NCBI GenBank assembly: GCA_905478765.1
Contig: CAJQJY010000007.1
Location: 1 to 51,551 of the forward strand
Length of the DNA stretch: 51,551 bases
From: an uncultured Flavobacteriales bacterium
GTDB lineage: Bacteria; Bacteroidota; Bacteroidia; Flavobacteriales; BACL11
Direction: 5' to 3'
Under the pieces are notes generated by a model. That model saw only the letters and a list, made by a program, of their open reading frames with translations, ran no database searches and had not been told where the DNA came from. Positions 1,905 to 15,872 of the stretch are shown here, piece after piece (the stretch's first letter is position 1; each line of letters begins with the position of its first letter). The position numbers and the translations under genes are program-made.

Positions 1905-4187
1905 ATGGAAGATTATTTGCAAAAACTAAACCCTGAACAAAGAAATGCAGTAACGCATTCAACCGGACCATTAATGGTAATTGCTGGCGCAGGTTCAGGC
2001 AAAACAAGAGTTTTAACATATAGAATTGTACACCTATTAAAATCAGGAATATATCCACATAATATTTTAGCTTTAACTTTTACTAACAAAGCATCAAAAG
2101 AGATGCGGAACAGAATAGAGCTTATGGCAGGGGAATCGGAAGCTAGAAGCCTTTGGATGGGGACTTTTCACTCGGTTTTTTCTAAGATTTTACGATTTGA
2201 AGCCGAAAAATTAAATTATCCAAGCAACTTTACAATTTACGATACGGACGACTCTAAAAGTTTAGTAAGAAGCATCATTAAAGAGTTAAACTTAGATAAA
2301 GATATTTATAAACTTGGCGTGATAAGGAACAGAATATCATCATTAAAAAATAACTTTATTTCTCCAGCAGGATACAACAATAAATCCGAACTTAACCAAC
2401 AAGATAAAATAGCAAAAAGAACTGAATTTGGGAGGGTTTATCAAATGTATGTTCAAAGATGTGAAAAAGCATCAGCAATGGATTTTGATGATCTACTTTT
2501 AAAAACATATCAATTATTAGAAAATCATGATGAAGTATTGCTTAAATATCAAGAAAAATTTAAATATATTTTAATTGATGAGTACCAAGATACTAACCAT
2601 ATACAGTATTTGATAATCAAAAAATTAGCCGCACTGAATGAAAATATCTGTATAGTAGGAGATGATGCTCAAAGTATCTATGCATTTAGAGGGGCAAATA
2701 TTCAGAATATCCTCAATTTTAAAGATGATTATCCTAACTATAAAACTTATAAACTAGAACAGAATTACCGATCCACTTCTACTATTGTTGAGGCTGCAAA
2801 TAGCATTATCAAACAAAATGAGCAACAAATTGCAAAAAATGTTTGGACAAGTAATACAAAAGGAGATAAAATAATTGTTGTAAAAACGGGCTCAGATAAT
2901 GATGAAGGGAGGCTAGTTGCAAACACAATTTTTGATGTGCAAATAAGAAGTCAAGCGCACCATAAAGATTTTGCTATTCTCTACAGAACAAACGCGCAAT
3001 CTCGTTCTATGGAAGAGTCGCTCAGAAAGAGGAACATTCCTTATAAAATCTATGGTGGATTGTCATTCTATCAAAGAAAAGAAATTAAAGATTTACTAGC
3101 TTATTATCGTCTTTGCACAAACCCAAATGATGAAGAAGCTTTTAAGCGAGTTATAAACTATCCAACAAGAGGTGTTGGCACAACTACTATTCAAAAATTA
3201 TTTTTTTTTGCAAACGAAAAAAACAAGACTATTTGGGAGGTGATAAATCATCTTGATGAAGCAGATATTAACATTAATAATGGGACTCGAAAAAAGTTGA
3301 AAGAATTTGCTTTATTAATCAATAATTTTATTTTAGATACTAAGAAAAAAGATGCATATACTGTAGCGGAAGAAATTGCTAAAAAAACTGGACTTTTTAA
3401 TGATTTATACACAGACAAATCACCAGAAGGAGTTAGTAGATTTGAAAACATTCAGGAACTTTTAAATGGAATAAAAGATTTTAGCGAAACAGCTGAAAAG
3501 GGCACCAACAAACTACCTGATTTTATGGAAGATGTAGCACTTTTAACTGATCAAGACAAAGAGACTGATGATGACTTTAACAAAGTTACTTTAATGACGG
3601 TTCATGCTGCAAAAGGATTGGAGTTTGCTTATGTATTTGTGGTTGGTTTAGAAGAAAATCTTTTTCCAAGCATGATTAGTGGTGAAAGTCAAGAAAATTT
3701 GGAAGAAGAAAGAAGACTTTTTTATGTTGCAATTACTAGAGCTAAAAAAAGACTTTTTTTGTCTTTTTCTTCAACTAGATTTAAATGGGGGCAATTCACA
3801 GACTGTAAGCCCAGCAGGTTTATAAGCGAATTGGACGATAATTTTTTAGAAAAACATGAGCTTACACCAAAAAAGAAAAAAGAATACAATCCGTATAAAA
3901 TTTATGCCAAAACAAAATACAAAGAGAAGAAGTACTCCGCTGCTACCAAAAAATTTGTAGCTCCAAAAAATTTAACCAACATAAATAGAGCAAAAAATAT
4001 ATCAATTAAAGAAAGTGATTTAAGTAAAATACAAAACGGAATGCAAGTGAAACACTCAAGGTTTGGTGAGGGTACAGTTTTAAGCATTTCAGGCGAAGGA
4101 AGCAATAGGAAAGCAACCGTATTCTTTAATGGCATTGGACAAAAAGACTTGTTACTAAAATTTGCAAAACTTGAAATCATAAAATAA
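1905..4187 (+). CDS. uvrD: UvrD/PcrA-type ATP-dependent 3'-5' DNA helicase (SF1)
   Basis: This is a superfamily 1A helicase that unwinds DNA in nucleotide excision repair, mismatch repair and removal of recombination intermediates. Walker A is AGAGSGKT at residues 27-34, Walker B is DEYQDT near residue 226, motif III is GDDAQSIYAFRGA, motif V is TVHAAKGLEF and motif VI is RRLFYVAITRAKK. The C-terminus (KHSRFGEGTV and following) resembles the Tudor-like tail of PcrA/UvrD, which contacts RNA polymerase. At 760 residues it is the usual family length. The choice between PcrA and UvrD is only nomenclature here. The gene is monocistronic: its own promoter lies upstream, and the remnant of a LuxR-type regulator abuts its stop codon. 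Confidence 0.95.
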   Translation: MEDYLQKLNPEQRNAVTHSTGPLMVIAGAGSGKTRVLTYRIVHLLKSGIYPHNILALTFTNKASKEMRNRIELMAGESEARSLWMGTFHSVFSKILRFEAEKLNYPSNFTIYDTDDSKSLVRSIIKELNLDKDIYKLGVIRNRISSLKNNFISPAGYNNKSELNQQDKIAKRTEFGRVYQMYVQRCEKASAMDFDDLLLKTYQLLENHDEVLLKYQEKFKYILIDEYQDTNHIQYLIIKKLAALNENICIVGDDAQSIYAFRGANIQNILNFKDDYPNYKTYKLEQNYRSTSTIVEAANSIIKQNEQQIAKNVWTSNTKGDKIIVVKTGSDNDEGRLVANTIFDVQIRSQAHHKDFAILYRTNAQSRSMEESLRKRNIPYKIYGGLSFYQRKEIKDLLAYYRLCTNPNDEEAFKRVINYPTRGVGTTTIQKLFFFANEKNKTIWEVINHLDEADININNGTRKKLKEFALLINNFILDTKKKDAYTVAEEIAKKTGLFNDLYTDKSPEGVSRFENIQELLNGIKDFSETAEKGTNKLPDFMEDVALLTDQDKETDDDFNKVTLMTVHAAKGLEFAYVFVVGLEENLFPSMISGESQENLEEERRLFYVAITRAKKRLFLSFSSTRFKWGQFTDCKPSRFISELDDNFLEKHELTPKKKKEYNPYKIYAKTKYKEKKYSAATKKFVAPKNLTNINRAKNISIKESDLSKIQNGMQVKHSRFGEGTVLSISGEGSNRKATVFFNGIGQKDLLLKFAKLEIIK

Positions 4188-13472: not shown

Positions 13473-14174
13473 ATGTCATTAATCATAAATAGTGTAAATA
13501 AATCTTACGATAAACAACAAGTTCTTACTGATGTTTCCTTTACACTAAACAAAGGTGAAATAGTTGGTTTTTTAGGGCCTAATGGAGCAGGCAAATCTAC
13601 ACTTATGAAAATTATAACTTGCTATTTACAACAAGATAGTGGTAAGGTACAGGTCTGTAACTTAAATATTCAAGAACAAGACATACAAGTAAAAGCAAAA
13701 ATTGGCTATTTACCAGAGCACAATCCTCTTTATACTGACATGTATATTAAAGAATATCTTTCTTTTATTGGAGGTATTTATGAAGTTGAAAACTTAAATA
13801 ATCGTGTTGCTGAAATTATCATGCAAACAGGATTAATTTCTGAGCAAAGTAAAAAAATTAGAGAACTAAGTAAAGGATACAGACAAAGAGTTGGCTTAGC
13901 TTCAGCACTCTTACATAATCCAGAGGTATTAATTCTTGATGAACCCACAACAGGACTTGACCCTAATCAATTGGTGGAAATTAGAAATCTAATAAAAGAA
14001 GTTGGTAAAGATAAAGCTGTACTACTATCCACACACATTATGCAAGAAGTTGATAAAATGTGTAGCCGAGTCATCATCATTAGTAAAGGTAAAATTGTTG
14101 ACGACCAGTTAATTTCTAATCTCAAAAACAATAAGATCAACCTAGAAGAGCATTTTAGAAAATTGACTGCTTAA
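13473..14174 (+). CDS. gldA: GldA-type gliding/secretion ABC transporter ATP-binding protein, shortened
   Basis: This is the ATPase of the GldAFG ABC transporter required for gliding in Flavobacterium. Walker A is GPNGAGKST (residues 35-43), the GldA-typical GYLPEHNPLY follows, the signature is LSKGYRQRVGLA (132-143), Walker B is LILDEPTTGLDPNQLVEIRN, and the switch region is LSTHIMQEV. These blocks match Flavobacterium GldA closely. However, the protein has 233 residues and not about 300: after GKIVDDQLISNLKNN it jumps to LEEHFRKLTA, which is how full-length GldA ends, so an internal stretch of about 65 residues is missing. gldF and gldG are not adjacent, which is usual. A generic ABC-2 exporter ATPase is the alternative. 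Confidence 0.85.
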   Translation: MSLIINSVNKSYDKQQVLTDVSFTLNKGEIVGFLGPNGAGKSTLMKIITCYLQQDSGKVQVCNLNIQEQDIQVKAKIGYLPEHNPLYTDMYIKEYLSFIGGIYEVENLNNRVAEIIMQTGLISEQSKKIRELSKGYRQRVGLASALLHNPEVLILDEPTTGLDPNQLVEIRNLIKEVGKDKAVLLSTHIMQEVDKMCSRVIIISKGKIVDDQLISNLKNNKINLEEHFRKLTA

Positions 14175-14182
14175 AAAGCTTA

Positions 14183-14254
14183 CTATGGGGGTTTATACCT
14201 TTTACTTATAGTTCCCATGGCTCCATCAAGCACAAGGATTTTGTTTAATAATAA
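14183..14254 (-). pseudogene. metH: metH (cobalamin-dependent methionine synthase) N-terminal stub
   Basis: On the minus strand, about 23 codons read LLLNKILVLDGAMGTISKRYK and then Pro-Pro and a stop at 14183-14185. ILVLDGAMGT is the opening of the homocysteine-binding domain of MetH, nearly always found within the first 25 residues. An in-frame stop (14255-14257) precedes the block and no ATG remains in frame, so it cannot be translated as methionine synthase. The remaining protein of roughly 870-1,200 residues is gone; gldA ends 8 nt away. The stub lies downstream, on the same strand, of a degraded SAM-I riboswitch, which is the expected regulator of a methionine synthase gene. Confidence 0.85.
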
Positions 14255-14325
14255 TTATTTTATATCAGATCCCACATTATAACAATACTCAATAAAAAAT
14301 ATAGGTTGTGAAAATTTATGTATTT

Positions 14326-14426
14326 CATACATCTTACTAAATGTTGGAGTAGAACTTGGCACCTTGCATTTACAAGCTTGCAAAGACACCATAAGACCCA
14401 TCTCTAAGTCTTACTTTATAAGTATG
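14326..14426 (-). promoter_or_regulatory. Degraded SAM-I (S-box) riboswitch upstream of the metH stub
   Basis: Read on the minus strand the S-box blocks appear in order: P1 5' strand CATAC (14426-14422), AAGAC, AGAGATGGGTCTTATG (consensus GAGGGA, then GGCCC and gAUGA), GTCTT, GCAAGC (consensus GCAACC), AAGGTGCCAAGTTCTAC (consensus GGUGCUAAUUCC), a P4 hairpin TACT/AGTA, AAGATG (consensus AGAUG), and the P1 3' strand GTATG (14330-14326). P3 would be a perfect ACCTTG/CAAGGT stem if 14377 had not changed so that GCAACC became GCAAGC; there is now a G-G mismatch. Just after P1, ATGTAT/ATACAT can form a competing hairpin. The missing consensus bases, the absence of a TAnnTTTG box and the lost target gene suggest a relic. 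A short open frame across it (14255-14401) is not a gene. Confidence 0.75.
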
Positions 14427-14463: not shown

Positions 14464-14483
14464 ATTATAAAAAATTTTATAAT
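14464..14483. repeat. Perfect 9-bp inverted repeat over the metK promoter
   Basis: ATTATAAAA (14464-14472) and TTTTATAAT (14475-14483) form a perfect inverted repeat around a 2-nt centre, overlapping the first four bases of the metK -7 box. It could be a repressor operator, but its AT-only composition makes chance possible in this genome. Confidence 0.35.
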
Positions 14484-14487
14484 TTTG
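14480..14487 (+). promoter_or_regulatory. -7 promoter box for the SAM-II/metK transcript
   Basis: TAATTTTG matches TAnnTTTG. The predicted start point (about 14491) lies a few bases before the SAM-II P1 stem, the same geometry as at the TPP element. Confidence 0.65.
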
Positions 14488-14496
14488 CATTAATAT

Positions 14497-14545
14497 GTGG
14501 ATAGATTTGGCCTATTGCAACCACTAAAAAAAATGCTAAAAATAG
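14497..14545 (+). promoter_or_regulatory. SAM-II (SAM-alpha) riboswitch controlling metK
   Basis: All parts of this compact H-type pseudoknot aptamer are present. P1 is GTGG (14497-14500) with CCAC (14521-14524). The conserved GATTTG (14504-14509) and TTGCA (14515-14519) occupy the loop. The pseudoknot helix P2 is CTATT (14512-14516) with AATAG (14541-14545), after an A-rich linker and the invariant GCTAAAAA (14535-14542). SAM-II binds S-adenosylmethionine and lowers expression of methionine/SAM genes, which fits metK 67 nt downstream. The core strand GATTTGGC (14504-14511) is also perfectly complementary to GCCAAATC at 14567-14574, a possible SAM-free alternative helix. Confidence 0.93.
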
Positions 14546-14612
14546 TATTTCCTTTAGCGCTTTTACGCCAAATCTTCCGATTAAATTATTGTTAAACTTA
14601 AAATTTAAAAAG

Positions 14613-15872
14613 ATGTCATATTATTTCACATCAGAGTCCGTTTCAGAAGGACACCCAGACAAAGTAGCAGATCAGATTTCGGATGCATTATTAGATAATT
14701 TCTTAGCGCAAGACCCATCATCAAAAGTGGCTTGCGAAACATTAGTTACAACCGGACTTACTGTATTAAGTGGTGAGGTGACAACAGATGCGTATATTGA
14801 CGTACAAAAGATTGCAAGAGAGGTGATTTTAAAAATTGGTTATGATAAATCAGAATATCAATTTGATGGCGATAGTTGTGGTGTGATTTCTGCAATTCAT
14901 GAACAATCACCGGATATTAACCAAGGTGTTGTAGAAGGTAAAGGACTAAACAAAGAGCAAGGAGCAGGAGATCAAGGAATGATGTTTGGTTATGCAACAA
15001 ATGAAACAGAAAATCTTATGCCACTAGCCTTAGATATTTCTCATAAAATATTGATTGAACTTGCTGACATTAGAAAAAAAGGAGTTGAAATGACTTACTT
15101 GCGTCCTGACTCAAAGTCACAAGTTACTTTAGAGTATAATGACGATCATACTCCAAAAAGAATTACAGATATAGTAGTTTCTACTCAGCATGATGATTTT
15201 GCAGAGGAAAAACCAATGCAAGAGCAAATTGAAAAAGATGTTAAAGAAATATTAATTCCAAGAATTAAAGTTCAATTATCAGAAGATAATAAAGCGCTTT
15301 TCGGGACTGAAAAATATCATGTAAATCCAACAGGGAAATTTGTGATTGGAGGGCCACATGGAGATACTGGACTTACTGGAAGAAAAATTATTGTTGATAC
15401 TTATGGTGGAAAAGGGGCTCACGGAGGTGGAGCATTTTCTGGTAAAGACCCATCAAAAGTAGATAGATCAGCTGCTTATGCTACAAGACACATTGCTAAA
15501 AACTTAGTAGCAGCCGAAGTTGCTGAAAGAATTCTAGTGCAAGTTAGTTATGCAATTGGTGTTGCTGAGCCAATGGGGATATTTGTAGATACTTATGGAA
15601 CTTCAAAAGTAAATTTAACAGATGGGGAAATTGCTGACATTGTAAAAGGAATGCCTTGTTTTAACCTTAAACCTGCTTCTATTATTAACCGTTTAAAACT
15701 TAAAAATCCGATTTATTCTGAAACTGCAGCTTACGGGCATATGGGAAGAACATCAGAAAATAAAACTGTTAGTTTCCTTATTAACGGAAAACAAAAAGAA
15801 ATAGAAGTAGAAACCTTTACTTGGGAAAAATTGGATTGTCAAGAAGAGGTGAAATCTGCATTTAGTTTATAA
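14613..15872 (+). CDS. metK: S-adenosylmethionine synthetase
   Basis: This enzyme makes SAM from methionine and ATP. The start is taken at the ATG at 14613 ([21 protein letters not shown]), because the family begins there; the upstream in-frame ATG at 14589 would add eight unrelated residues. The signature hexapeptide region [13 protein letters not shown] and the P-loop-like [19 protein letters not shown] are intact, and the length of 419 residues is normal. The gene is monocistronic with its own promoter, SAM-II leader and terminator, so it should be under feedback control by its product. Confidence 0.98.

Follow-up and report, generated by a model that had tools for sequence, protein, structure and literature searches.

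The SAM-II leader of metK and its surroundings

The stretch of DNA analysed here, called the window below, comprises 51,551 nucleotides from an uncultured Flavobacteriales bacterium and carries, ahead of metK, the single SAM-II aptamer that a covariance-model search found in the 1.6 Mb genome (Table 1). The original prediction of a SAM-II aptamer in front of metK is borne out on both counts: the RF01726 score of 58.2 bits lies above the 44-bit cut-off, and the downstream gene is identified as metK by TIGR01034 (511 bits). The aptamer stands 63 nt 5' of metK on the same strand, which is the methionine/SAM gene context expected of a SAM-II riboswitch. Directly upstream of P1 is TAATTTTG, which fits TAnnTTTG, the consensus of the Bacteroidota-type promoter -7 element, and TAnnTTTG occupies this position in 123 of 133 metK leaders. 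Given where this element lies, the transcript in the window should begin right before the aptamer. In such an arrangement the aptamer would presumably be the first part to be transcribed, and SAM could bind before the competing strand described below exists.

Table 1. Features of the metK leader and of the divergent SAM-I/metH remnant, in window coordinates
Feature	Position	Strand	Basis
metH 5' relic, NKILVLDGAMGTISKRYKPP then stop	14186..14272	-	alignment to the start of intact metH in L033
Decayed SAM-I (S-box) riboswitch, divergent from SAM-II	14324..14424	-	RF00162, 24.6 bits, gathering score 44.4
Promoter -7 element, Bacteroidota type, TAATTTTG (TAnnTTTG)	14480..14487	+	sequence; same element in relatives
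SAM-II (long-loop) riboswitch aptamer	14491..14549	+	RF01726, 58.2 bits, gathering score 44, E 1.1e-8
Aptamer P1: GUGG 14497-14500 with CCAC 14521-14524	14497..14524	+	consensus structure of the Rfam alignment
Aptamer arm of the competing helix: GGA-(U bulge)-AGAUUUGGC	14499..14511	+	sequence and minimum-energy fold; kept in relatives
Possible second anti-aptamer pairing: GCUAAA 14535-14540 (aptamer 3' strand) with UUUAGC 14553-14558	14535..14558	+	sequence
Switching strand: GCCAAAUCU-UCC, complement of 14499-14511	14567..14578	+	sole well-conserved block from aptamer to AUG in the family
Proposed start-region sequestrator	14572..14614	+	predicted; order-wide leader x start-region covariation, not significant in the window's family
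metK, methionine adenosyltransferase	14613..15872	+	TIGR01034, 511 bits; ATG at 14613

The opposite strand carries a SAM-I-like stretch, the only one in the genome. It misses the SAM-I cut-off, yet the part of the window that includes it is 77% identical, over 340 aligned bases, to a relative with an intact copy (L033), and because it falls below the cut-off while being homologous to intact copies we regard it as a decayed relic. The metH stub in the window begins NKILVLDGAMGT..., and metH was not found elsewhere in the genome, where the two matches, of ~22 and ~18 bits, are both to a single domain. Many relatives have at this place a full-scoring SAM-I element, which precedes metH and diverges from SAM-II/metK. 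A sister genome (L025, G046) is an intermediate stage of SAM-I/metH loss: its SAM-I element scores 36.6 bits and is likewise decayed, and metH was not found there. A survey published in 2007 reported no species with both SAM-I and SAM-II (PMC2258182); unlike that survey, the relatives with intact SAM-I/metH carry two SAM riboswitch classes back to back in one intergenic region. The divergent pair provides a natural setting in which to ask why one cell keeps two classes of SAM sensor.

Some observations concern other parts of the window. A GldA-like ABC ATPase of 233 aa (13473-14174, plus strand) matches residues 1-223 of a 301-residue profile at 367 bits, against a cut-off of 402.6, and may have been shortened where metH was lost. 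At 3678-3775 on the plus strand, Rfam n00280, a C. difficile sRNA inside a helicase gene, matches above its cut-off; the sequence at this place, LEEERRLFYVAITRAKKRL, resembles a conserved helicase motif, so the match probably reflects coding conservation and not an RNA. A search of viral contigs for exact copies of part of the leader returned none.

The competing helix and its conservation

An 8-bp complementarity had been predicted between GATTTGGC (14504-14511) and GCCAAATC (14567-14574). Inspection of the sequence confirms that the two are exact complements, with GCCAAATC correctly placed 55 nt downstream and 39 nt before the start codon. The helix had in fact been understated: the pair A14503-U14575 lengthens it to 9 bp and, in the minimum-energy fold, it resumes past the bulged U14502 as GGA (14499-14501) with UCC (14576-14578). 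Through this extension the 5' strand of P1 would be captured as well, and half of P1 removed. The full window leader folds 3.1 standard deviations better than its shuffles, none of 200 being as good. In 20,000 dinucleotide shuffles of the window leader, the exact 9-mer of the competing helix arose three times and an exact complement of any 8-mer in the 29-nt aptamer arm 207 times; with G-U pairs allowed, 9/9 pairing arises in about 4% of shuffles. Taken from the window sequence alone, the competing helix is suggestive and would not decide the matter; it is its conservation that makes it convincing.

In the window's family (f1), the aptamer is present in 35 of 52 genomes; 36 leaders were extracted, each of them followed by metK. 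All but one of the 36 retain the strand GCCAA[A/G]T (35 leaders, one row having an N inside it), at a variable spacing of 19-32 nt after GCUAAA and 21-46 nt before AUG. When 19 leaders less than 80% identical downstream were aligned, GCCAAATC was the only well-conserved block between aptamer and AUG, and the sequence flanking it has diverged across the family while GCCAAATC stays. The exception, L010, has GCCACUU, which fits the AAGUGG of its own P1, and its best duplex beats most shuffles (z -2.9). Across 21 distinct family rows the competing helix pairs in 93% of cells. Among its nine pairs, one shows a two-sided change (the outermost, A-U to G-C, in 3 rows), two show one-sided changes and five are invariant. 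Because these five never vary, covariation within the family is mostly uninformative.

At the level of the order, RF01726 matches in 269 of the 395 genomes sampled. From across the order 133 metK leaders were extracted, the window's own included, and thinned to 53 that are less than 70% identical. All but one of these (52/53) pair with their own aptamer better than the shuffle mean (mean z -2.07; 31 at p<=0.05). A swap test, corrected for row and column means, showed own aptamer-leader combinations to pair better than swapped ones by 3.24 kcal/mol, an excess reached in 0 of 20,000 permutations, and likewise in 0 of 20,000 when swaps were kept within families. Yeosuana aromativorans (L216) provides an individual example, with GAUUUGAC in the aptamer and GUCAAAUC downstream, a matching change of both arms. 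Pairing extends to eleven leaders outside the order (mean z -2.17; 10 of 11 negative). The original prediction had named conservation and covariation of the second strand in relatives as its check, and both the retention of the strand in the family and the order-wide co-variation of aptamer and leader speak in its favour. Together, family conservation and the swap-test excess argue that the competing helix is very probably a genuine alternative fold, and they provide the conserved anti-aptamer helix that is expected of sequestrator/anti-sequestrator riboswitches.

We also keep, as a possible candidate, a second anti-aptamer helix formed by GCUAAA and UUUAGC. Complementary 6-mers of this type occur in 17 of the 53 dissimilar leaders against 8.2 expected, a modest enrichment, and the helix is absent from the minimum-energy fold of the window leader. 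On the minus strand (14530-14560), the same GCUAAA/UUUAGC pair together with the A-run of the aptamer, which there reads as a U-run, looks in many relatives like an intrinsic terminator; it would act against antisense transcription.

Predicted start-region pairing and the output of the switch

Intrinsic termination was rejected as the output. No intrinsic terminator was found between aptamer and metK in the window leader, and terminator-like sites occur in 2 of the 53 dissimilar leaders against 0.9 expected, so that they are essentially absent. For the start-region test, the leader sequence that follows GCUAAA and stops 20 nt short of the start codon was set against the start region (-16..+9) of the same species. 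Here the swap excess is -2.01 kcal/mol, reached in 0 of 20,000 permutations and also in 0 of 20,000 within families. Three coding-region controls gave -0.38 kcal/mol (1,440/20,000, p 0.07; within families 0.21), -0.02 kcal/mol (9,319/20,000, p 0.47; within families 0.69) and, for +30..+55, -0.47 kcal/mol (721/20,000, p 0.036; within families 0.18). As the last of these is nominally positive, at about a quarter of the start-region effect, a small non-specific component may exist, and single-family results near that level are not decisive alone, as in f9 (p 0.012). The other significant families are f8 (p<1e-4) and f6 (p 0.0008), the latter Weeksellaceae by resemblance to L218, a Chryseobacterium. 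The window's family f1 does not reach significance (p 0.19), and f3, which resembles L180 and is on that ground taken as Flavobacteriaceae, shows no effect (p 0.95). In f9 the pairing covers AUG and includes a compensatory change, UAUCUU/AAGAUG versus UAUUUU/AAAAUG. Flavobacterium-type f3 leaders (e.g. L180, L190, L209) have little start-region pairing, and the output there may differ.

Predicted openness of the start region, taken as full-length minus aptamer-removed RNA, is above the shuffle mean in 38 of 53 leaders (Wilcoxon p 1e-5), the folding energies used ignoring the SAM-bound pseudoknot. Overlap between the arms of the two helices was discarded as proof of their mutual exclusion: 47 of 53 leaders overlap, but by 5.3 nt against 4.7 nt by sliding. 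In the window leader, the predicted sequestrator would join AUCUU (14572-14576) to AAGAU (14610-14614, which includes the AU of AUG) and UUAAAUU (14581-14587) to AAUUUAA (14602-14608), and AUCU is common to this pairing and the competing helix. It is weak, being no better than shuffles; several close relatives have a stronger sequestrator (AUCUUCcUUAAA/UUUAAGAAGAU in L003). With its sequestrator at shuffle level, this locus has the start-region half of the mechanism by inference. The earlier suspicion of an output other than Shine-Dalgarno masking gains support at the scale of the order, where terminators are essentially absent and leaders are matched to their own start regions, with p 0.19 in the window's family.

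Strand exchange as the probable mechanism, its alternatives and known systems

Sequence comparison indicates that the competing helix is conserved and co-varying, and that leaders in several related families are fitted to the start regions of their own species. We consider that the leader probably functions as a feedback OFF riboswitch for metK, acting by strand exchange with a translational output. When SAM is scarce, the switching strand (14567-14578) would pair with the aptamer core and P1 (14499-14511), and the aptamer could not form; the paired block would stop about 35 nt upstream of AUG, leaving the A-rich, Shine-Dalgarno-less start region open, and MetK would be made. When SAM is bound, the aptamer would retain its own arm and set the switching strand free. 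The freed strand and the bases following it would then pair with the start region, AUG included, and close it to 30S subunits. We infer that SAM drives this exchange, that the exchange affects translation and that, in the window's species, the second pairing has the strength required.

The same alternative fold could serve another output than translation: it might alter the stability of the mRNA, or transcription through Rho-dependent or intrinsic termination. In proteobacteria, terminators are predicted for many SAM-II switches (PMC1273637; PMC2258182), and the window's own family has a weak sequestrator. Against intrinsic termination stand the lack of such a terminator in the window leader and the near-background count among the 53 leaders, and in our view an output other than translation is unlikely. 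The textbook scheme of direct occlusion, in which the aptamer folded by SAM would cover the site where the ribosome lands, leaving to the downstream complement just the tuning of aptamer stability, agrees with the classification of SAM-II as a direct-occlusion riboswitch (PMC10907184). It would call for a Shine-Dalgarno sequence in or next to the aptamer, near the start; by eye the window leader has none, and the aptamer ends at 14549, 63 nt before the AUG at 14613. A tuning role would moreover leave the leader x start-region covariation unexplained, and we hold direct occlusion to be quite improbable here. It is also conceivable, at very long odds, that shared ancestry or composition has produced the complementarity, which would then have no regulatory role. 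The five invariant pairs in the family would be compatible with this, as would the ease with which A+T-rich leaders pair once G-U is allowed. The persistence of GCCAAATC between diverged flanks goes against it, and the swap tests, at 0/20,000 both across and within families, already disfavour it.

Strand exchange with a translational output, the reading that we prefer, fits the biology of the phylum, which lacks Shine-Dalgarno sequences and in which structure near the start codon tunes initiation, as described in Flavobacterium johnsoniae (PMC6847099). More tentatively, and with chances that we would put slightly short of even, it could be the rule for SAM-II in Bacteroidota: a two-faced strand would have the aptamer as one partner and, as the other, the start codon with the A-rich region upstream of it, giving a Shine-Dalgarno-independent OFF switch for translation that evolves in step with the start region of each lineage. 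SAM-II is the textbook Shine-Dalgarno-hiding riboswitch, yet it is matched in 269/395 genomes of an order whose phylum makes hardly any use of Shine-Dalgarno sequences, and in the leaders examined the gene that follows is metK. If a conserved switching strand acts on the start region, this would be a concrete answer to how riboswitches can control translation in such a phylum, and candidate leaders are present in culturable genera.

There are clear similarities to, and differences from, the systems already described. In the Sargasso Sea metX SAM-II riboswitch (PMC10907184), the ligand class and the pseudoknot aptamer are the same and the OFF logic is as expected here, but the Shine-Dalgarno sequence lies inside the aptamer, whereas in the window the AUG is 63 nt downstream and would be reached via a separate strand. 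The Sinorhizobium meliloti metA/metZ SAM-II elements (PMC9373788) likewise act on the start codon at a distance; Shine-Dalgarno masking and terminators are involved there, neither of which was found in the window leader. Translational riboswitches of the sequestrator/anti-sequestrator type (PMC2258182) follow the same scheme of mutually exclusive pairings as the one proposed here, and differ in that the masked element would here be an A-rich start region without a Shine-Dalgarno sequence, together with the AUG. A further comparison is with the SAM-II long-loop family itself (RF01726; Weinberg et al. 2010, PMC2864571), which is the same aptamer family in the same phylum, listed as Bacteroidetes (marine). 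In the text of that paper and in the other, mostly open-access, literature consulted we found no description of an expression platform for SAM-II in Bacteroidota. The aptamer is a member of a known family, and the conserved switching strand and the start-region pairing are the features described in the present analysis.
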